Source: Mesorhizobium sp. AR10 | Lineage (GTDB): Bacteria > Pseudomonadota > Alphaproteobacteria > Rhizobiales > Rhizobiaceae | Reading direction: 5' to 3' | Length of the DNA: 64,000 bases | Assembly (NCBI RefSeq): GCF_024746795.1 | Contig: NZ_CP080524.1 | Span: 2,396,001-2,460,000, forward strand | Shown here: positions 54,512 to 63,710 of the stretch, in pieces | Layout: the number at the start of each line of letters is the position of its first letter | How positions within the stretch are numbered: position 1 is the stretch's first letter | Position numbers and translations under genes: made by a program | The notes under the pieces: model-generated | What the model saw: the letters and a program-made list of their open reading frames with translations, nothing else | Told to the model about the DNA's origin: nothing | The model's database searches: none

Positions 54512-55375
54512 CTAGCTGTCCACCAATGCTGGAAAGCACGCTGTGAAGGCCGTGTCTATAATGGCAAGCTTGATTGCCTGGGCGGTCATGTACTCCTGAT
54601 AGAAGCTGTTCGAGACCCACATGACCGAATGGCCGCGCTGGCCCAACCAGCCAACGCTGCCGAGTTGTTCGGCATCGCGCAGCTTGCGGGCAAGATGGGT
54701 GCGCGAAAGCTTGAGCCAATTGGCGAAATCGCCGATCGAAACGACATCGGTCGGAATTCGATCCTGTCCGGCATGATCGGGATCGACGCCGGATATCAGC
54801 CAATCCATCACGACGCCGCCATTGTTCAGCCAAGTAAACAGGGAAAAGGTCTGTTTCGGCTCGCGCACCGGGTTGGAAGAAAGCAGGCCGTCGGCCACCA
54901 GCGGCTGCAATCCGGCAAGCATGTCTGGTCGTTCGAGAAACCTGGCCACCCGGTTGGCGCCATCGAGACTGTCCAATGTCTGCAGATGGGCAAGCATCCA
55001 GCCGGCAAATGTTTCCACCGTGGCCGCCGTCAGCTGCAAGGGGCGTATACGCCCGTCCTCGCTCGTCGACACATACTGAATGAAATTGTAGTGCAGCATC
55101 TCCCTGACGAAGGCTTCGGCGGTGTTGCGGCTGGCCACCGAATGCTGGCGGATCGCTTCGATGAAACGGGCGATCGTCAATTCCTTGCGAAAGTCGTGCG
55201 GGTCCCGCCTGAAGTGCAAGGCAAGGCCGATGTGCGCCATCAGCCAACGCTGCTGCGTGGCAAACACGGAAGCGAGACGCGGGTTCTCTTCATAGGCCTG
55301 AAGCAGCGCCTGCGCTTGCGCCCGGACACGGCGATGCAATGCCGGATGGCTGGCAATATCTTCCAAGTTCAGCAC
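54512..55375 (-). CDS. Double-HTH protein of unrecognised family (paralogue A)
   Basis: A 287-residue protein. I do not recognise a named family. Residues about 50-145 read like a MarR-type winged helix: helices around RFIEAIRQHSVASRNTAEAF, then LHYNFIQYVSTSEDGRIRPLQLTAATVETF, with a DGR wing and an LT-x-A motif. A second HTH-like segment lies near the C-terminus (DVVSIGDFANWLKLSRTHLARKLRDAEQLG). Start GTG 55375 has GGGGGG upstream and makes it the same length as paralogue B. It is probably a transcription factor; no target is known. Confidence 0.75.
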   Translation of the reverse strand: MLNLEDIASHPALHRRVRAQAQALLQAYEENPRLASVFATQQRWLMAHIGLALHFRRDPHDFRKELTIARFIEAIRQHSVASRNTAEAFVREMLHYNFIQYVSTSEDGRIRPLQLTAATVETFAGWMLAHLQTLDSLDGANRVARFLERPDMLAGLQPLVADGLLSSNPVREPKQTFSLFTWLNNGGVVMDWLISGVDPDHAGQDRIPTDVVSIGDFANWLKLSRTHLARKLRDAEQLGSVGWLGQRGHSVMWVSNSFYQEYMTAQAIKLAIIDTAFTACFPALVDS

Positions 55376-55518: not shown

Positions 55519-56382
55519 TCATTCCTCAGTTGTCGGAAAACACGCCTGGTAGGCTGCCTCGACAATGGCGAGCTTGGCGGCCTGGACCGTCATGTACTCC
55601 TGGTAAAACTGGTTCGAGACCCACATGACCGAATGGCCGCGCGAGCCCAGCCAGCCGACGCTGCCGAGCGCCTCGGCGTCGCGCAATTTGCGGGCAAGAT
55701 GGGTTCGCGAGAGCTTGAGCCAACTGGCCATGTCGCCGATGGAAACCACGCTCGTCGGGATACGATCGAGGCCGGCATGGTCGGGATCGATGCCGGACAT
55801 CAGCCAATCCATGACGATGCCGCCATTGTTGAGCCAGATGAATAGGGAAAAGGTCTGTTTGGGTTCGCGCACCGGATTGGAGGAAAGCAGGCCGTCCGCC
55901 ACCAGCGGCTGCAATTTGGCAATCATGTCGGGTCGCTCAAGGAACATGGCCAACCGGCTGCCGCCATCGAGACTGTCCAGTGTTCGCAGATGGGCAACGA
56001 CCCAGCCGGTAAATGCTTTCAGCGTGGCCGCCGTCACCTGAAAAGGTCGGGCGCGCCCGTCCCCGGTCGTCGGCAGATACTCGACGATGTGATAGTGCAG
56101 CATCTCCTTGATGAAAGCGTCAGCGGTGTTGCGGCTGCCCACCGAATTCTGGCGTATGGCCGCCATGAACCGTGTCACCGTCAGTTCCGTGTGATGGTCG
56201 CGCGGGTCTCGTCTGAAGTGCAAGGCAAGCCCGACATGGGCCATCAGCCAACGCTGCTGCGAGGCGAACACGGAAGCAAGACGCGGGGTTGCTTCATAAA
56301 TCTGGATCAGTGCCAGCGACTGCGCCCGAACACCGCGATGCAATGCCGGATGGCCGGCAATATCTTCCAAATTCAGCGCCAT
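55519..56382 (-). CDS. Double-HTH protein of unrecognised family (paralogue B)
   Basis: A 287-residue paralogue of the previous gene, sharing most residues (LNLEDIAGHPALHRGVRAQ, FASQQRWLMAHVGLALHFRRDPRD, RNTADAFIKEMLHYH, LLSSNPVREPKQTFSLF, SRTHLARKLRDAE, GHSVMWVSNQFYQEYMT). The MarR-like DGR wing and the second HTH are retained. ATG 56382 directly follows a GGGGG run, so spacing is short; an upstream TTG is possible. The upstream DNA also resembles that of paralogue A, which suggests duplication of gene plus promoter. Confidence 0.75.
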   Translation of the reverse strand: MALNLEDIAGHPALHRGVRAQSLALIQIYEATPRLASVFASQQRWLMAHVGLALHFRRDPRDHHTELTVTRFMAAIRQNSVGSRNTADAFIKEMLHYHIVEYLPTTGDGRARPFQVTAATLKAFTGWVVAHLRTLDSLDGGSRLAMFLERPDMIAKLQPLVADGLLSSNPVREPKQTFSLFIWLNNGGIVMDWLMSGIDPDHAGLDRIPTSVVSIGDMASWLKLSRTHLARKLRDAEALGSVGWLGSRGHSVMWVSNQFYQEYMTVQAAKLAIVEAAYQACFPTTEE

Positions 56383-56641: not shown

Positions 56642-57484
56642 GTGACCGCAATGCCTAGAACGATCCGAACGCTTGCGCCCGAGGACGTGGAAGCCCTTGT
56701 CGACTGGGCGGCCGCCGAAGGCTGGAACCCCGGCCTCGACGATGCCGCGGTGTTCCGGGCGGCCGATCCCGAGGGCTTCATCGGCGCCTTTGTCGACGGC
56801 GAGATGGTGGCCGGTATCTCGGCCGTTATCTATGGTGCCGACTTCGGGTTCATCGGCCTCTACATCTGCCGCCCGGACAGGCGCGGCCAAGGGCATGGCA
56901 AGGCGGTCTGGCATGCCGGTATGGCGCGGCTCGGCAACCGCACGATCGGCCTCGATGGCGTTGCTGAACAGCGTGACAACTACCAGCGCATGGGGTTCGT
57001 GCCTGCTTACGACACTGTTCGCTACAGTGGGCCGGTCGGCACCCTGGCGAGCCCGGGCGACATCCAGCCTGTCGCGCCGGAGCGCATCGCCGATATCCTG
57101 GCTTACGATCGCATTTGTTTCCCGGCACCACGGCAATCCTTCCTCGAGGAATGGCTGCAGCCGCCCCGCATTGCGCTTGCGATCGTCAAATCCGGAACGG
57201 TTTCCGGCTACGGCGTGGCGCGGCCGTGCCGCGATGGTTTCAAGATCGGGCCGTTGTTCGCCGACGATATGGAAATTGCGCTGCAACTTTTGACGGGATT
57301 GGCAAGCGTTCACGCCGGCAAGACCCTGCACATCGACGTCCCGGCAACCAACGGCGATTTTACAGCGAGGCTCGAAGCGGCCGGTCTGTCGCCCAGCTTC
57401 ACAACGACCCGAATGTACAGGGGAGGCGTGCCTGAAAATATCCCAGCCAGGGTTTTCGGGGTAACGACACTCGAATTGGGCTGA
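56642..57484 (+). CDS. GNAT-family N-acetyltransferase
   Basis: A 280-residue acetyltransferase. The N-terminal GNAT domain begins RTIRTLAPEDVEALVDWAAAEGWNPG and has the acetyl-CoA motif IGLYICRPDRRGQGHGKAVWHAGM (R-R-G-x-G-x-G). The C-terminal half (LEEWLQPPRIALAIVKSGTVSGYGVARP) resembles the second domain of YitH-type proteins. The start is GTG 56642 or ATG 56651. A 397-residue frame on the opposite strand is a shadow. The substrate is unknown. Confidence 0.88.
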   Translation: MTAMPRTIRTLAPEDVEALVDWAAAEGWNPGLDDAAVFRAADPEGFIGAFVDGEMVAGISAVIYGADFGFIGLYICRPDRRGQGHGKAVWHAGMARLGNRTIGLDGVAEQRDNYQRMGFVPAYDTVRYSGPVGTLASPGDIQPVAPERIADILAYDRICFPAPRQSFLEEWLQPPRIALAIVKSGTVSGYGVARPCRDGFKIGPLFADDMEIALQLLTGLASVHAGKTLHIDVPATNGDFTARLEAAGLSPSFTTTRMYRGGVPENIPARVFGVTTLELG

Positions 57485-57573: not shown

Positions 57574-58206
57574 CTAGCGGGCCTGCGCGCTCGCAGCGCA
57601 AGCCCGGGACAGATGTTCGTTCCATTCAATGTGCGGGATACGATGGGCTAGGTAGTCGGCCATTTGCATCAGCGCGTCAGAAGCGGTCAGTTGGCCTGGG
57701 TGCAACGCCAGCCTGAGCCAAAGCCCGTCGATAAGTGTCGTTATGCCAAGCGCGACGGTTTCACATTCGCCCGACGGCACGAGCGCCGACAGTGCCGTCA
57801 TCAGGTTTGAATGCATGCGGGCATGAACGACGCGCTGGATACGCGCCAGCTGTGGCTCGCGCGGGATTTCGGCGCAAAGGGCAAGCCAGGCGCGACAAAT
57901 CCCGGGAGTGAAAAACGCCGTGCTGAAATTGCCTTCGATGATCGCCCATAATCGCTGATCCGGGCTACGAGCAAGGCGCATCAAGCGGATGACCTCATCC
58001 CGCAGCAAAGCATTCGAGTGCCGCATGGCATGCTCGAACAGTTCCTGTTTGGTTTTGAAATAGTGGTGGACAATGCCCTTCGACGCGCCTGCCCTCTGGG
58101 CGACCTTTTCGATGGTGGCTCCGCCCATACCCTCCGCCTGGAGGACCTCATAGGCTGCATGGCGCAATTCGCGGCGTCGAATATCGCTTATTCTCGTGAG
58201 ACTCAT
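57574..58206 (-). CDS. TetR-family regulator, BetI-like
   Basis: A 210-residue TetR-type regulator. The N-terminal HTH reads DIRRRELRHAAYEVLQAEGMGGATIEKVAQRAGASKGIVHHYFKTKQELFEHAMR, which is close to the BetI pattern. ATG 58206 is preferred; the upstream extension to 58260 is low-complexity. It is divergent from the LuxR-type gene with an 85-base gap. A TTGGCCAA palindrome (about 58225) lies in the gap. It may regulate either the LuxR gene or the adjacent oxidative cluster. Confidence 0.9.
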   Translation of the reverse strand: MSLTRISDIRRRELRHAAYEVLQAEGMGGATIEKVAQRAGASKGIVHHYFKTKQELFEHAMRHSNALLRDEVIRLMRLARSPDQRLWAIIEGNFSTAFFTPGICRAWLALCAEIPREPQLARIQRVVHARMHSNLMTALSALVPSGECETVALGITTLIDGLWLRLALHPGQLTASDALMQMADYLAHRIPHIEWNEHLSRACAASAQAR

Positions 58207-58291
58207 GCGCCGACATTGACATATTTGGCCAATAGGATCAAGAATCGGCCAGACGACCAATTTACAGGATGCCTAGCCAAGGAGGAGAGAA

Positions 58292-59371
58292 ATGAATGTT
58301 CTTTCTCCAGTAAGCGCCGATCCTCGAGACCGCGCGTGGACGCGGAACGCGTCCGAAATTCCGCGCCGCGCAGCCAAGATGGGATTTTGGGACGCGATCG
58401 GGCGCGCCAGTGCAGCCATAGGCGGCGAGACCTTCTATGATCGGCTTCTAGAGGTGCTGAGCTCGTTGGTAAAAGCCGACCTTCTTTCTCTGGTCCGCTA
58501 TTCAAGTTTTGGCGCACCCGATCTGGTTATTCCTCGTGAGATCAGGATTGAGGTTGCAGCACCTTATGACTCTGGTTTCTATGCGTTCGACCCTTTCCAC
58601 AACTATTGGCGAACTGTCGGGGAGCCTGCCGTCAAATCCTTGCGTCGGCTGGCGCCCGACGAATTGTGGAAGAGCCGCTATGCCCTGGAATTCTTACGCG
58701 CCGCGCGCATTAGCGACGAAATCGCGGTGTTCTTGCCGCCAATCGGCGGAGCCAGCCCAACCCTCATTGTTGACCGGGCCGTTGGCGAGTTCACGGCCGC
58801 TGAGGTCGTCCGCGTCGAGAGTGTGTTTCCGCTTTTGGCGGGCCTGCACAATGCGCATCTCAAGGCAATTATCAGCCGCGGATTGATCGGCCATTCGACA
58901 GAAAAGCCATTGCGCTTGATCGACCGCAGCGGCAAGGAGCTCGCGGCCAATCACGCGTGGAGGACGTTGGCCGCAGATCCAGGAAGCGGGCTCGTCGAAG
59001 CCCTGGCGGATTTGGCCTGTCCCGGCAGAACGCAGACATCGCTTGCCGACGGTCGGCTCATCGTCAGGTCTCCCCTGGCTGCGGATTTTGGTGCCGCCCC
59101 AGGAGGCTTGTGCGATCAGGTGGAAGTGTCCGCCCTGAACGCTCCGAGTGGGCAAGACGACGGCTGGCTTGCGTGCCTTACCCACCGAGAGAGGCAAATT
59201 GTGATGCTCACTCTGGAAGGGCATCCGATCGTGAGCATAGCCAGCCGCCTCGGCCTCAAGCGCGGCACTGTCAAGAACCATCGGCTACGCCTCTACCAGA
59301 AGCTCGACATCACCACCGAGAGAGAACTTTTTCTCACCTACATGCAACATCTGCGAGCCCCTGGAAGATGA
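58292..59371 (+). CDS. LuxR-type transcriptional regulator
   Basis: A 359-residue regulator with a C-terminal LuxR/GerE HTH (LACLTHRERQIVMLTLEGHPIVSIASRLGLKRGTVKNHRLRLYQKL). The N-terminal 280 residues are not a recognisable autoinducer domain and show only a weak PAS/GAF-like look (YDRLLEVLSSLVKADLLSLVRYSS). A strong AAGGAGG precedes ATG 58292. It converges with the monooxygenase gene. The 20-bp dyad sites at 60843 and 60934 are the right size for a LuxR-type dimer, but this link is inference. Confidence 0.9.
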   Translation: MNVLSPVSADPRDRAWTRNASEIPRRAAKMGFWDAIGRASAAIGGETFYDRLLEVLSSLVKADLLSLVRYSSFGAPDLVIPREIRIEVAAPYDSGFYAFDPFHNYWRTVGEPAVKSLRRLAPDELWKSRYALEFLRAARISDEIAVFLPPIGGASPTLIVDRAVGEFTAAEVVRVESVFPLLAGLHNAHLKAIISRGLIGHSTEKPLRLIDRSGKELAANHAWRTLAADPGSGLVEALADLACPGRTQTSLADGRLIVRSPLAADFGAAPGGLCDQVEVSALNAPSGQDDGWLACLTHRERQIVMLTLEGHPIVSIASRLGLKRGTVKNHRLRLYQKLDITTERELFLTYMQHLRAPGR

Positions 59372-59380
59372 TACCCATGT

Positions 59381-60775
59381 TCACTCAGCTGCAGCGGGAA
59401 CTTCGGTCTCAGCAAGGCTAGGCACCGGCAGTCGTGTGCGTCCGAAGCCAAGGGCACGCGCTCGCTTCCGGCCACGCCGCAGTTCACTGTCCAGATCGGC
59501 AAAATAGATGTCCTGATCGAGCTGCATGGTGTGGCGCGCCGAAGCGTAGTAGCGCGCCATATGCTTCTTCTCGTCGGCGATGATCATGCGTGACTGTTCC
59601 TCCACGTCCGGCAATGCGTATTCGCCCGACAAGTAGGCCGCGATCCATTTCGCCTGGCGCTCGGCAAGCGCGAAAAGCGTGATGCTGGGTTGGGCCAAAG
59701 CGATGAAGAACAGGTTCGGGATCCCGGGCTTGAGCACGCGCTTGAAGAGAGGCAGCCGATTGCCGGGCGCCGCTATAAAGGACGGATCGAAGAATGGAAA
59801 GGTGACCTTGTAGCCGGTGGCCCAGACGATGATATCGATCTTTTCGCGACGCCCGTCTTCGAAAACGATGCTGTCCCCATCAAGCTCTCTGATCCCAGGC
59901 CGAATCTCTATATCGCCCGAAGCGACAAGAGTTGGGAACGTGTCCGATACCGAGATATGAGCCTCGAAGACGCGGTGGTCGGGTTTCGGCAGACCGAAGT
60001 CCTCCATGTAGCCGACTGCGAAATGGAATATCCGACGACCGACCCAGCGTTGCCATGACAGCGGCAGCCAGGGATACAGCTTGCCCTTGTCGGCCGGCTT
60101 TCCGAGGAGAAAGCGTGGAAAGATATGCGCGCCGCGCCGCGTGCTCACAAAGAGCTTCTTCGTTATGTGGCGTGGGCAAAGCTCGGTGGCGATGTCCATT
60201 GCCGAATTGCCCATCCCGACAACGAGAACGCTCTTATCCCTGAAGTCGACAGGGTTGAAGGGATCGCGATAGGTATGCGAATGAAATTGCGTGCCGTCGA
60301 AATGGCCGGGATAAGCGGGGTCCGGCAGGCGGGAATCCCAGTGATGCCCATTGCAGACGAACAGGGCATCATAAGAGTGCGTCTGGCCGTCGCCCAAGCG
60401 AATTTGCCATATTCCCTGACCGTCACGATTGGCCTCGGTGACTTCCGTGTTGAGTCTGACTTTGCCGGATAAGCCGAAGTGCTCCACATAGGCCTGCAAA
60501 TAGGCCAGCACCTGCGTGTGGTGCAGATAGTGAGGCGTATCGGCAGGCATTGGAAAGTCTGAAAGCTGCAGCTGCAGCTTCGACGTATCGATGTGCAGGG
60601 AGCGATAGGCCGCCGACTTCCCATTTGGATTCTCGAATGCCCATTGGCCGCCAATCCGGTCGCTCATGTCAAACCAGTCAAAAGGGATGCCCCGTTCGGC
60701 AAGCGCCTTGGCGGTGACGATGCCGCTGCAGCCGGCTCCGATGACGCAGCATTTGGGAAGAGTATCTGGCTTCAT
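59381..60775 (-). CDS. Flavin-containing monooxygenase
   Basis: A 464-residue class B flavoprotein monooxygenase. It has the FAD-binding V-I-G13-A-G15-C-S-G18 motif, the identifying sequence F159-x-G161-x-x-x-H165-x-x-x-Y169 and the NADPH motif V-G187-M-G189-N-S. The Y rather than W at the end of the motif suits FMO-type enzymes more than Baeyer-Villiger enzymes, but some FMOs act on ketones. ATG 60775 is chosen. It is probably part of the oxidative cluster with the divergent SDR. Confidence 0.92.
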   Translation of the reverse strand: MKPDTLPKCCVIGAGCSGIVTAKALAERGIPFDWFDMSDRIGGQWAFENPNGKSAAYRSLHIDTSKLQLQLSDFPMPADTPHYLHHTQVLAYLQAYVEHFGLSGKVRLNTEVTEANRDGQGIWQIRLGDGQTHSYDALFVCNGHHWDSRLPDPAYPGHFDGTQFHSHTYRDPFNPVDFRDKSVLVVGMGNSAMDIATELCPRHITKKLFVSTRRGAHIFPRFLLGKPADKGKLYPWLPLSWQRWVGRRIFHFAVGYMEDFGLPKPDHRVFEAHISVSDTFPTLVASGDIEIRPGIRELDGDSIVFEDGRREKIDIIVWATGYKVTFPFFDPSFIAAPGNRLPLFKRVLKPGIPNLFFIALAQPSITLFALAERQAKWIAAYLSGEYALPDVEEQSRMIIADEKKHMARYYASARHTMQLDQDIYFADLDSELRRGRKRARALGFGRTRLPVPSLAETEVPAAAE

Positions 60776-60836
60776 GGCAAAGGCTCCGGCGAAACAATCT
60801 TGGATGTGCGAGGAGCCTAGATCACGCTTTGTGGTG

Positions 60837-60959
60837 CCAACAATGGTGCCGACGGTCACCATAGAGTTTGGGTGCGTCGCCGCGAAGACTTTTGTAAATG
60901 TTGGCCCGGCCGCAGCAGAGGCCCACTCTGCAGATGGTGACCGTCGGCACCATTGTTGG
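60837..60959. promoter_or_regulatory. Paired 20-bp dyad operators between divergent FMO and SDR genes
   Basis: A perfect 26-bp inverted repeat (60837-60862 and 60934-60959) holds in each arm a dyad ATGGTG-N8-CACCAT (60843-60862 and 60934-60953). Site edges lie about 67 bases from the FMO ATG and 65 bases from the SDR ATG. They read as operators for one regulator acting on both promoters. No clear -35/-10 pairs were assigned. Confidence 0.65.
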
Positions 60960-61018
60960 AGCCGCGACCTGTGAATAGGTTTTCTGGCATCCACGATCGC
61001 TTTGCCGGGAGCCGTTCC

Positions 61019-61783
61019 ATGACACTCAATCACTCATCACAGGAGAGGTTCCAGGTGCCGCCTCTTCTTGTTGGCCGCCGCGCCGTCGTGACCGGTGCAG
61101 CGGGTGGCATCGGCAAGGCAATCGCCGATGCCTTCGATGCGGCCGGAGGGACGGTGGTCCGCCTTGACATAAGGGCTTCCGACTCTGTTCGCAGCTGTGA
61201 TGTGGCAGATGAAGAATCCGTGGTGCGTGCATTCATGGACGTGGCAGCCGACGGACCCGTCGACGATGTCGTCCATGCAGCTGCGATTGGCGCCGTCGCT
61301 GCACTGGCTGACATGTCGGCAGCGGAGTTCCGCCGCGTGCTGGACGTGAACCTGACGGGTGCCTTCCTGGTCGCGCGAGAGGCGACGCGCCATATGCGCC
61401 GCGGCGGAAATCTCGTCCTTGTCGCTTCGCAGTACGGCCTCAAGGGGTGGCCCCTGTGGGGAGCCTATTGTGCCTCCAAGGCTGGCGTATTGAGGTTGGC
61501 TGACACGCTCGTGGGGGAACTCGCACCGCAGGGCATACGCGTGAATACGATTTCGCCTGGCAGCGTCGACACGGAGATGGTCGCAACAACCACCGCCAAT
61601 ATTGCGCGTCAATCGGGAGCTGATGCCGCGGCTATTCGCGCCGGCTATGAAGCGGCCATCCCCATGGGCCGCTTTGCGCAACCCGGAGAGATTGCATCCG
61701 TCGCTGTGGCGCTCTGCTCAGGCCTCTGCTCCTATGTGAACGGATCCAATATCGTCGTCGACGGCGGAGAACTTTCGCGATGA
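61019..61783 (+). CDS. Short-chain dehydrogenase/reductase (first)
   Basis: A 254-residue SDR. The nucleotide motif is TGAAGGIGKAIAD (TGxxxGxG) and the catalytic Y150-x-x-x-K154 is in YCASK, preceded by the S in VLVASQYG. The sequence ends IVVDGGELSR. ATG 61019 is used. It lies in the position of a divergent partner of the FMO gene. Typical SDRs interconvert alcohol and ketone, which could feed a monooxygenase step. Confidence 0.92.
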   Translation: MTLNHSSQERFQVPPLLVGRRAVVTGAAGGIGKAIADAFDAAGGTVVRLDIRASDSVRSCDVADEESVVRAFMDVAADGPVDDVVHAAAIGAVAALADMSAAEFRRVLDVNLTGAFLVAREATRHMRRGGNLVLVASQYGLKGWPLWGAYCASKAGVLRLADTLVGELAPQGIRVNTISPGSVDTEMVATTTANIARQSGADAAAIRAGYEAAIPMGRFAQPGEIASVAVALCSGLCSYVNGSNIVVDGGELSR

Positions 61784-61989
61784 CTGAAAGCACCATCGGC
61801 AGTCGCCAAATCGCGATCTGCGCGCCGCGCAGCTAAGCAGGATATCGATCTACCTGCTTCTCCAGCAATCGTTTGGTCTCGCTGCAGCGCGCGACATCGG
61901 CAGCACTGCCGACCGGAGCGCGGAAATTTTCGGCGGTGCGGGTCGGCAGCGCGAAAGAAGCCAAAGCCAAGGACCACAGGGAGGAAAGA

Positions 61990-62760
61990 ATGCCGCAACG
62001 GGTCATGATCACAGCGGGTGGTTCGGGCATAGGATGGGCGATCGCGAAGGCGTTCGTCGACAATGGCGCCAGGGTTCATATTTGCGATGTCGACGAGCGG
62101 GCGCTTGGCGAAGTCACCGAGAAATATCCGCAGATCGCGGTCCGTCGACTCGACCTGACGGATGAGGAAGCGATCGACCGTTGGTTCGACGATGCCTTGG
62201 GCGATCTCAACGGCCTCGATGTCTTGATCAACAATGCTGGCACCAAGGGGCCGACCGGCTATGTCGAGGAGCTCAAGCTCGACGACTGGCGCGAATGTCT
62301 GAGCGTCTGTCTCGATGCTCAGTTCCTTTGTGCCAGGCGGGCCACACCCGCCATGAAGGACCAGCGTTCGGGCAGCATCATCAATATCTCCTCGACCGCC
62401 GGGCTCTACGGCTATGGCCTTCGCACGCCTTATGCCGCTGCCAAATGGGCGGTAATCGGGTTTACCAAATCCCTTGCCGTCGAGCTGGGTCCGTATGGCG
62501 TGCGCGCCAATGCAATTTGCCCGGGCTCTGTCGATGGCGCACGCATGCAGCAGGTGATGAAGGCCGAGGCCGAAAGCCGCGACGTCTCCCTCGATCTCGT
62601 CCACAAGGAATACGTCCAGTCCCAGTCGATCAAGCGCTTCGTCAAGCCGGAAGAGATCGCCGATATGTGCCTCTTCCTCGCCTCGCCCGCCGCCAAGATG
62701 ATGACCGGCCAGGCAATCGCTGTCGACGGCCACACCGAGACGTTCCACATAGGCAGCTGA
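61990..62760 (+). CDS. Short-chain dehydrogenase/reductase (second)
   Basis: A 256-residue SDR with TAGGSGIGWAIAKAF, NNAGTKGPTG and catalytic Y148-A-A-A-K152, preceded by SSTAGLYG. ATG 61990 is chosen because GAGGAAAG lies just upstream; the frame can extend to 61873. It is 206 bases after the first SDR. Sequence differs clearly from the first SDR, so the two are not recent duplicates. Confidence 0.92.
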   Translation: MPQRVMITAGGSGIGWAIAKAFVDNGARVHICDVDERALGEVTEKYPQIAVRRLDLTDEEAIDRWFDDALGDLNGLDVLINNAGTKGPTGYVEELKLDDWRECLSVCLDAQFLCARRATPAMKDQRSGSIINISSTAGLYGYGLRTPYAAAKWAVIGFTKSLAVELGPYGVRANAICPGSVDGARMQQVMKAEAESRDVSLDLVHKEYVQSQSIKRFVKPEEIADMCLFLASPAAKMMTGQAIAVDGHTETFHIGS

Positions 62761-62822: not shown

Positions 62823-63710
62823 ATGCCGACAGGCAATTCAGAATGGCAAATCAGTGCTCAAACTCGCGACCGACTGGGCGAGAGCATCCTGTGGCATCCG
62901 GTGGAGGAAGCTCTTTACTGGATCGATTTTTACGGCCCACTCGTGCATCGCCAGAAGGGTGGCAGCGGTATGGTCGAGAGCTGGAAGATCGATTCAGGAG
63001 AGACGATAGGATCGCTCGTCTTCGCCGACAAGGGCCGCCTCCTTCTCGCTGTTGATCACGGCCTCCATCTCTTCGATACCAGCACCGGCACGACACGCTT
63101 CTTCGCCGATCCCAAAACCGGGAAAGCGAACCTGGCTTACAACGACGGCAAGGTCGACCGGGCCGGGCGCTATTGGATCGGAACCTATGATCTCTCCGAG
63201 AGGGAAGCTGGCGCGGTTTTCTATCGGATGGCATCGGACGGCAAGGCAGAATTGGCCGACAAAGGTTTTGTCATCTGCAATGGCCCGACTTTCTCCCCCG
63301 ACAATCGCATGCTCTATTTCAGTGACACGGTTGGCCACCGCATCCTCTCCTATGACCTCGATCGCAACGGAATGATATCCGGCCGGCGGGTCTTCTTCAC
63401 TTTTGCAAACAATGATGGAATGCCAGACGGCCTCGCGGTTGATAGCGCCGGGAATGTCTGGTGCGCACTCTATGGCGGCGGCAAAGTTGTGTGCATTGAC
63501 GCCAAGGGGACGCTCCGACGGTCGCTCTATTTGCCGGCTACTTTCGTTACAAGCCTCTGTTTCGGCGGGCCAGAACTCAAGACGCTGTATGTCACGACCG
63601 GTTGGAACAGCAGCACGACGGAAGCGACCAAGGCGAAGGATGTTGGCGGCGCGGTCTTCATGCGGCCAGTCGATAGTCCTGGCCTGCCGGAGCCAGTCAT
63701 CAAGCTTTAG
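62823..63710 (+). CDS. SMP-30/gluconolactonase-family lactonase
   Basis: A 295-residue six-bladed beta-propeller lactonase. It has GESILWHPVEEALYWIDFYGP (N-terminal metal Glu), KANLAYNDGKVDRAGRYWIGTYD (catalytic Asn/Asp) and NDGMPDGLAVDSAGNVWCALYGGGKVVCIDAKG. Its place after SDRs and a monooxygenase suggests hydrolysis of a lactone formed upstream. The exact substrate is unresolved. Confidence 0.92.
   Translation: MPTGNSEWQISAQTRDRLGESILWHPVEEALYWIDFYGPLVHRQKGGSGMVESWKIDSGETIGSLVFADKGRLLLAVDHGLHLFDTSTGTTRFFADPKTGKANLAYNDGKVDRAGRYWIGTYDLSEREAGAVFYRMASDGKAELADKGFVICNGPTFSPDNRMLYFSDTVGHRILSYDLDRNGMISGRRVFFTFANNDGMPDGLAVDSAGNVWCALYGGGKVVCIDAKGTLRRSLYLPATFVTSLCFGGPELKTLYVTTGWNSSTTEATKAKDVGGAVFMRPVDSPGLPEPVIKL

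Follow-up and report, generated by a model that had tools for sequence, protein, structure and literature searches.

The region between a flavin-containing monooxygenase gene (FMO) and a divergently transcribed short-chain dehydrogenase gene (SDR1) of Mesorhizobium sp. AR10 contains two copies of a 20-bp dyad, which are best read as separate class II activator sites for the LuxR-type regulator encoded nearby at 58292-59371, with luxR itself probably controlled by a BetI-like TetR repressor. This reading is based upon comparisons of sequences and we assign to it a probability of about 0.7. According to it, a LuxR dimer would bind each box just upstream of a weak -35 element, overlapping it by one base, with the centre of the box near -44 to -45. 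The bound protein would recruit RNA polymerase (class II activation), by which FMO and the operon consisting of SDR1, SDR2 and SGL would be turned on together, and in related strains SDR3 and a choline/betaine-type ABC transporter would be activated by LuxR as well. The divergent BetI-like TetR would probably repress luxR by means of an 18-bp dyad lying over the luxR start; a choline-like ligand would release luxR from TetR, after which the cluster would be activated by LuxR. These results supply an exactly defined operator and a small regulon for a Mesorhizobium cluster that was uncharacterised, together with two candidate regulators, for each of which a separate site is predicted.

The inverted repeat and its two 20-bp boxes

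The sequence analysed here (the window) is a 64-kb stretch corresponding to positions 2396001-2460000 of contig C2 in the 6.88-Mb genome of strain AR10, and all coordinates are given relative to its first base. An earlier note on this DNA had described a perfect 26-bp inverted repeat between FMO and SDR1, each arm of which is itself a dyad of the form ATGGTG-N8-CACCAT, and this description was confirmed. The two arms (60837-60862 and 60934-60959) are reverse-complementary at 26 of 26 positions and each of them contains ATGGTGACCGTCGGCACCAT; the dyads are located at 60843-60862 and 60934-60953 with their centres 91 bp apart, as claimed, and the distances from box to gene, which had been put at about 65-67 bases, were measured as 67 nt to the ATG of FMO at 60775 and 65 nt to that of SDR1 at 61019. 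The box of the FMO promoter (60843-60862, minus strand) reads ATGGTGACCGTCGGCACCAT towards FMO, and that of the SDR1 promoter (60934-60953, plus strand) is the same sequence mirrored, both being assigned from the sequence and from comparison across genomes. In a search of the window for inverted repeats of at least 18 nt (12-nt seed, arms no more than 200 nt apart), the repeat extends to arms of 41 nt at 17% mismatch (83% identity), and it is the longest among the six found.

The pattern ATGGTG-N8-CACCAT occurs four times in the 6.88-Mb genome, with two of these occurrences representing the pair between FMO and SDR1. When up to three mismatches to the 20-mer were allowed, seven matches were detected in the genome; only the intergenic pair is exact and the other five carry two or three mismatches.

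Conservation and specificity of the box

A total of 23 boxes were identified in nine cluster-bearing genomes, where they precede FMO (9/9), SDR1 (9/9) and, in five genomes, a third operon. The orientation of the box relative to its own gene is identical in all 23 cases and every target promoter has one box. The layout is ATGGTGACC-N3-GGCACCAT over 20 bp, which differs from the ATTG-N10-CAAT layout of the presumed BetI-type dyad. Among the 23 boxes, 14 of the 20 positions are invariant, as are positions 21, 22 and 25 (T, G and G); the gene-distal side reads GGTGACC or AGTGACC in all of them and the gene-proximal side reads GGCAC.

Homologues of FMO (E<=1e-100), LuxR (at least 73%) and TetR (at least 80%) were found in the same 8 of 119 genomes of the genus, where L005, L006, L007, L008 and L010 are the genomes G001, G168, G175, G012 and G079, respectively, and each was counted once. 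The nearest FMO relatives of the window genome are from Mesorhizobium strains (87-92% identity). The ninth genome, G507 (L009, a Rhizobiales isolate; FMO 74%), contains a rearranged cluster (L213 / G507:C74) in which SDR1 lies downstream of luxR, apart from FMO, and each of the two genes retains its own box. This rearrangement is a natural experiment on the independence of the FMO and SDR1 sites. It also bears upon the suggestion that the inverted repeat is a by-product of a recent duplication, a small inverted-repeat element or a hairpin and has no regulatory role. Perfect arms of 26 bp, extending to 41 nt at 83%, are of the kind that such events could leave, but three kinds of promoter have the box, as does the rearranged cluster, with unlike sequence in between; additionally, it lies upstream of both putative start sites and hence would not be transcribed from the FMO or SDR1 starts. 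We accordingly give this explanation practically no weight.

In the eight other cluster-bearing genomes, 21 of the 23 genome-wide matches to the box pattern (at most two mismatches) are cluster promoters; the remaining two carry two mismatches, and a control with the reversed pattern gave a single match. Among the 90 genus genomes searched for box pairs, the five that carry the FMO have them and the remaining 85 do not. The earlier note had named a search of the genome and its relatives as one check on its proposal, and absence of the repeat from orthologous clusters as evidence against it; the motif tracks the cluster, and the box is present in the orthologous clusters examined. These observations leave only a very small chance that an unlinked or global regulator acts at the box, as close matches in the window genome and eight relatives are restricted to the cluster, and the cluster together with its regulators is limited to 8 of 119 genus genomes, in one of them on a plasmid. 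The box is a real, conserved and cluster-specific operator.

Looser matches are widespread. Some match with up to two mismatches was found in 71 of 150 relatives (90 of them from the genus), most of these having two mismatches. Outside the cluster there are eight matches with no or one mismatch, which are exact in G011 and G089 and carry one mismatch in G005, G034, G071, G073, G081 and G087; six of the eight (all but those in G071 and G081) fall within mechanical ORFs of at least 100 aa. The box followed by TGnnG, with at most one mismatch, is found in 6 of 397 genomes of the order, viz. the cluster-bearing G000 (the window genome) and G012 and four others, and three of the four off-cluster matches are within mechanical ORFs of at least 120 aa, with one outside. 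Among the 90 genus genomes, the single matches outside the box pairs look chance-like. At 74 distant FMO loci (49-56% identity, 766 kb), a few of which have short upstream sequence, no ATGGTG-N8-CACCAT with at most one mismatch was found near FMO, the one match in these loci being 3.7 kb away from it.

A search of plasmids with the intergenic region gave as its sole match Mesorhizobium sp. B1-1-8 (G027), which is already among the genomes counted. In this strain the entire cluster is located on plasmid pB1-1-8 with an IS3 transposase alongside (L217, NZ_CP083957.1 358297-387343), which suggests that the cluster is mobile.

Architecture of the target promoters

The invariant T, G and G at positions 21, 22 and 25 sit within a TTGTTG-like hexamer. 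A second hexamer, TAnnnT, follows the box in all 23 promoters, at 21, 22 and 23 nt in 1, 6 and 16 of them, respectively, and it occurs at no other offset between 0 and 59 downstream of the 23 boxes. In shuffled downstream sequences (2000 rounds) TAnnnT was found on average in 0.81 and at most in 6 of the 23, a comparison in which the promoters are not independent because they are homologous. If the two hexamers are read as -35 and -10 elements, the box centres would be at -43.5 to -45.5, and the class II geometry, in which a dyad centred at about -42 to -45 overlaps the -35 element, is found for these putative elements at 23 of 23 boxes. For FMO, the putative -35 element TTGTTG (60838-60843, minus strand), recognised by comparison, has one base in common with the box, and the putative -10 element TAGGCT (60814-60819, minus strand) lies 23 nt past it, implying a centre at about -45.5. 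The corresponding elements of SDR1 are TTGTTG (60953-60958, plus strand), likewise recognised by comparison, and TAGGTT (60976-60981, plus strand), the latter 22 nt past the box with an implied centre at about -44.5. That the perfect repeat continues on the gene side to 26 bp is explained by the putative -35 region, which makes up the 6 bp of each arm beyond the box. With a strict sigma-70 scan no promoter was detected in 60700-61100, and the -35/-10 assignment is therefore based upon comparison; weak promoters that depend on an activator would be expected to escape such a scan.

The gap between the box and the FMO start is 63-69 nt in 9/9 genomes, that to the SDR1 start is 64-69 nt in seven genus genomes (G079 not among them) and 48 or 60 nt in G507, and that to the SDR3 start is 56-59 nt in 5/5 cases. 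In five of the eight divergent arrangements the box centres are 52 bp apart, and in the other three the spacing is 91, 103 or 107 bp. As the gap to FMO is nearly constant whereas the spacing between boxes varies, the boxes are placed relative to their own promoters and not to each other. This is of importance for the possibility, raised in the earlier note, that a single regulator binds both boxes at once by looping or bridging the 91 bp. The presence of two identical, mirrored sites between the same two genes invites this idea, and the spacing is near whole helical turns in seven of the eight genomes, yet five of these seven have one common 52-bp arrangement. The conserved, helically phased spacing which a looping pair requires is not what is seen, with four different values and 8.67 turns in the window; furthermore, only one box precedes the third operon, and the boxes of FMO and SDR1 in G507 are solitary and separated by 6.4 kb. 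We therefore see only a slight chance of looping, and this part of the earlier proposal was not borne out.

The two local regulators and their predicted sites

The broader proposal, that two copies of one operator place both promoters under one local regulator, is supported as probable by the 23 boxes in nine genomes. The earlier note had left the choice between the LuxR-type and TetR-type proteins to whichever of them the motif would track. It tracks both, and co-occurrence cannot separate them because every cluster found has the two of them, which within the genus are present in the same 8 of 119 genomes.

The LuxR-type protein (58292-59371, plus strand), the proposed activator at the 20-bp boxes, has a C-terminal GerE helix-turn-helix (HTH) domain (PF00196, 38.4 bits against a cut-off of 23.5), which places it among the LuxR/NarL HTH proteins. 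No autoinducer-binding domain was detected in it by Pfam at 1e-3, and its predicted structure has a mean pLDDT of 41.9, which is too poor to judge the sensor fold. Its HTH is nearly unchanged between the window and G507, whose whole proteins are 61% identical. Next to more diverged LuxR homologues (G764, G265, G313 and Sulfitobacter), no box was found at neighbouring promoters in stretches of 17-20 kb; G265 and G313 have an exact ATGGTG-N8-CACCAT about 5 kb from the LuxR homologue, within a long ORF. The putative luxR promoter, TTGACA-18-AAGAAT, is at 58216-58245 (plus strand), and its TTGACA is found in 9/9 aligned genomes. No ATGGTG box, exact or with up to two mismatches, precedes luxR in the window, which, like the lack of boxes next to the diverged homologues, speaks against the LuxR reading.

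The TetR-type protein (57574-58206, minus strand; the mechanical ORF extends to 58260, but the start at 58206 is preferred) passes both of the NCBIfam cut-offs for BetI, scoring 221.2 vs 201.3 bits with TIGR03384 and 171 vs 118 with NF001978. The window genome contains a second BetI homologue (60%), matches to which are present in 106 of 119 genus genomes (E<=1e-30) and which, by homology, we will refer to as the widespread betI. A dyad of 18 bp, ATTGwCC-N4-GGTCAAT, which by its place may be a BetI box, precedes the widespread betI in 7/7 regions, and the form ATTG-N10-CAAT does so in 20/22 loci. A similar 18-mer, ATCGGCCAGACGACCAAT, lies in the gap between tetR and luxR at 58244-58261, over the end of the putative -10 element and the start region of luxR, and judging from its place it is a candidate BetI-type operator. 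Compared with ATTG-N10-CAAT, the tetR-luxR 18-mer is exact in six of nine genomes and has one change in the other three, the window included. In the window it is an imperfect dyad (5/9 pairs), and its score was reached by 32 per 1000 shuffles in the window genome, 31 in G175, 24 in G079 and 0-7 in the other six. An extra TTGGCCAA element is present at 58225-58232 in the spacer of the putative luxR promoter, where it is exact in 6/9 aligned genomes; the BetI-like protein may have another site there.

The boxes could instead be operators of the BetI-like TetR, which would then directly repress FMO and SDR1 until a choline-like ligand removes it. Dyads of a size similar to the 20-bp box are bound by TetR dimers, and this TetR accompanies the boxes no less strictly than LuxR does, it is a BetI equivalog, and the half-sites ATGGTG and ATTGG have TGG in common. 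Moreover, the published BetI2 boxes of Ruegeria are other palindromes which deviate from the BetI1 consensus (PMC12442346). Against these points, the box lies upstream of the putative -35 element and not over the -10 element and start, the BetI-type 18-mer layout already exists between tetR and luxR, as it does before the widespread betI, and no ATGGTG box, exact or with up to two mismatches, was found before tetR in the window. Direct repression by TetR is hence considered unlikely. Of the two regulator types named in the earlier note, LuxR is favoured and TetR is not, because the box is at an activator position and a separate candidate BetI-type dyad is available to the BetI-like TetR. Position and elimination thus assign the 20-bp box to LuxR and the 18-mer to TetR as their probable sites, and the putative TetR dyad at a repressor-type position together with the box at an activator-type position fits a repressor-then-activator cascade. 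A more elaborate form of this model, which we put forward tentatively as possible but doubtful, is a two-step switch in which the BetI paralogue would sense a choline-like quaternary amine and gate a LuxR activator that has its own non-autoinducer ligand, so that the cluster and, in strains that have it, the transporter would fire only on both signals together.

Gene content and presumed function of the cluster

The target gene FMO (59381-60775, minus strand) has a Pfam FMO-like match at 1.8e-72 and its best PDB sequence match is 8z12 (7.1e-79); it scores far below the NCBIfam cut-off for trimethylamine monooxygenase (90 vs 675 bits). On the other side, SDR1 (61019-61783, plus strand; mechanical ORF from 60953) is followed by a second short-chain dehydrogenase, SDR2 (61915-62760, plus strand), and an SMP-30/gluconolactonase-like gene, SGL (62823-63710, plus strand; Pfam SGL 5.7e-72), both of which are probably members of the same operon as SDR1. 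The third operon, found in five relatives, consists of SDR3 followed by an OpuAC substrate-binding protein, a ProV/ChoV-like ATPase and a ChoW-like permease, of which only the permease is above its family NCBIfam cut-off (TIGR03416, 370 vs 363 bits). No such operon was found next to the cluster in the stretches from G000, G001, G168 and G507, and the best match that the window genome has to the operon's binding protein is a homologue of 36% at another place in the genome; the transport module appears to have been lost or replaced in the window genome. Where the five relatives have SDR3, the ABC transporter and the third box, a GNAT acetyltransferase gene (56642-57484, plus strand) adjoins tetR in the window. 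The region of the SDR3-ABC transporter operon is also occupied by tandem paralogues beside the cluster (54512-55375 and 55519-56382, minus strand), which are about 77% alike, 287 aa each, and have no Pfam match at 1e-3. Because the cluster combines an FMO with SDRs and a lactonase-like protein, has a choline-family transporter in five relatives and a BetI neighbour, its gene content suggests that a choline-like amine, quaternary or tertiary, is probably imported and oxidised by its products.

Comparison with known systems

The kind of operator described here is ordinary and known, whereas the regulon is apparently undescribed: neither the 20-mer nor its 16-mer core, on either strand, nor anything on this gene cluster was found in the open-licence literature. 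The LuxR-type protein has a likeness to the LuxR solos, which are LuxR-type HTH proteins acting without a cognate synthase. However, the solos are defined by an N-terminal autoinducer-binding domain (PMC4338825). As this domain was not detected by Pfam at 1e-3 in the protein considered here, it does not qualify as a member of the autoinducer type.

In the Ti plasmids of Agrobacterium, traR is located in the arc operon, and a single class II tra box, whose sequence is unlike that of our box, serves two divergent tra operons. The predicted arrangement of the Mesorhizobium cluster would resemble this TraR/tra box system in that a LuxR-type regulator, acting through a short inverted repeat in class II geometry, activates divergent operons (PMC3907764). 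In the TraR class II promoters the tra box is about 45 nt upstream of the start and partly overlaps the -35 element, and the acc and arc operons are under the control of the repressor AccR, which agrocinopines release (PMC3907764). The tra box is 18 bp long (PMC3907764), whereas the box described here is 20 bp, and, unlike TraR, the present LuxR-type protein lacks an autoinducer-binding Pfam match at 1e-3.

A further parallel is provided by BetI1 and BetI2 of Ruegeria pomeroyi, where there are likewise two BetI-type repressors per genome with an operator in a divergent intergenic region, and where betI2 homologues are often near choline transporters (PMC12442346). The footprinted BetI1 box of Ruegeria, ATTGACG*CGTCAAT, is a palindrome shorter than the 18-mer found here, and the word LuxR is absent from the main text of that paper (PMC12442346). 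Unlike in the Ruegeria system, the BetI paralogue of the Mesorhizobium cluster is divergent to luxR and the targets carry a different box, and the role of a LuxR-type protein beside a second BetI becomes directly testable.
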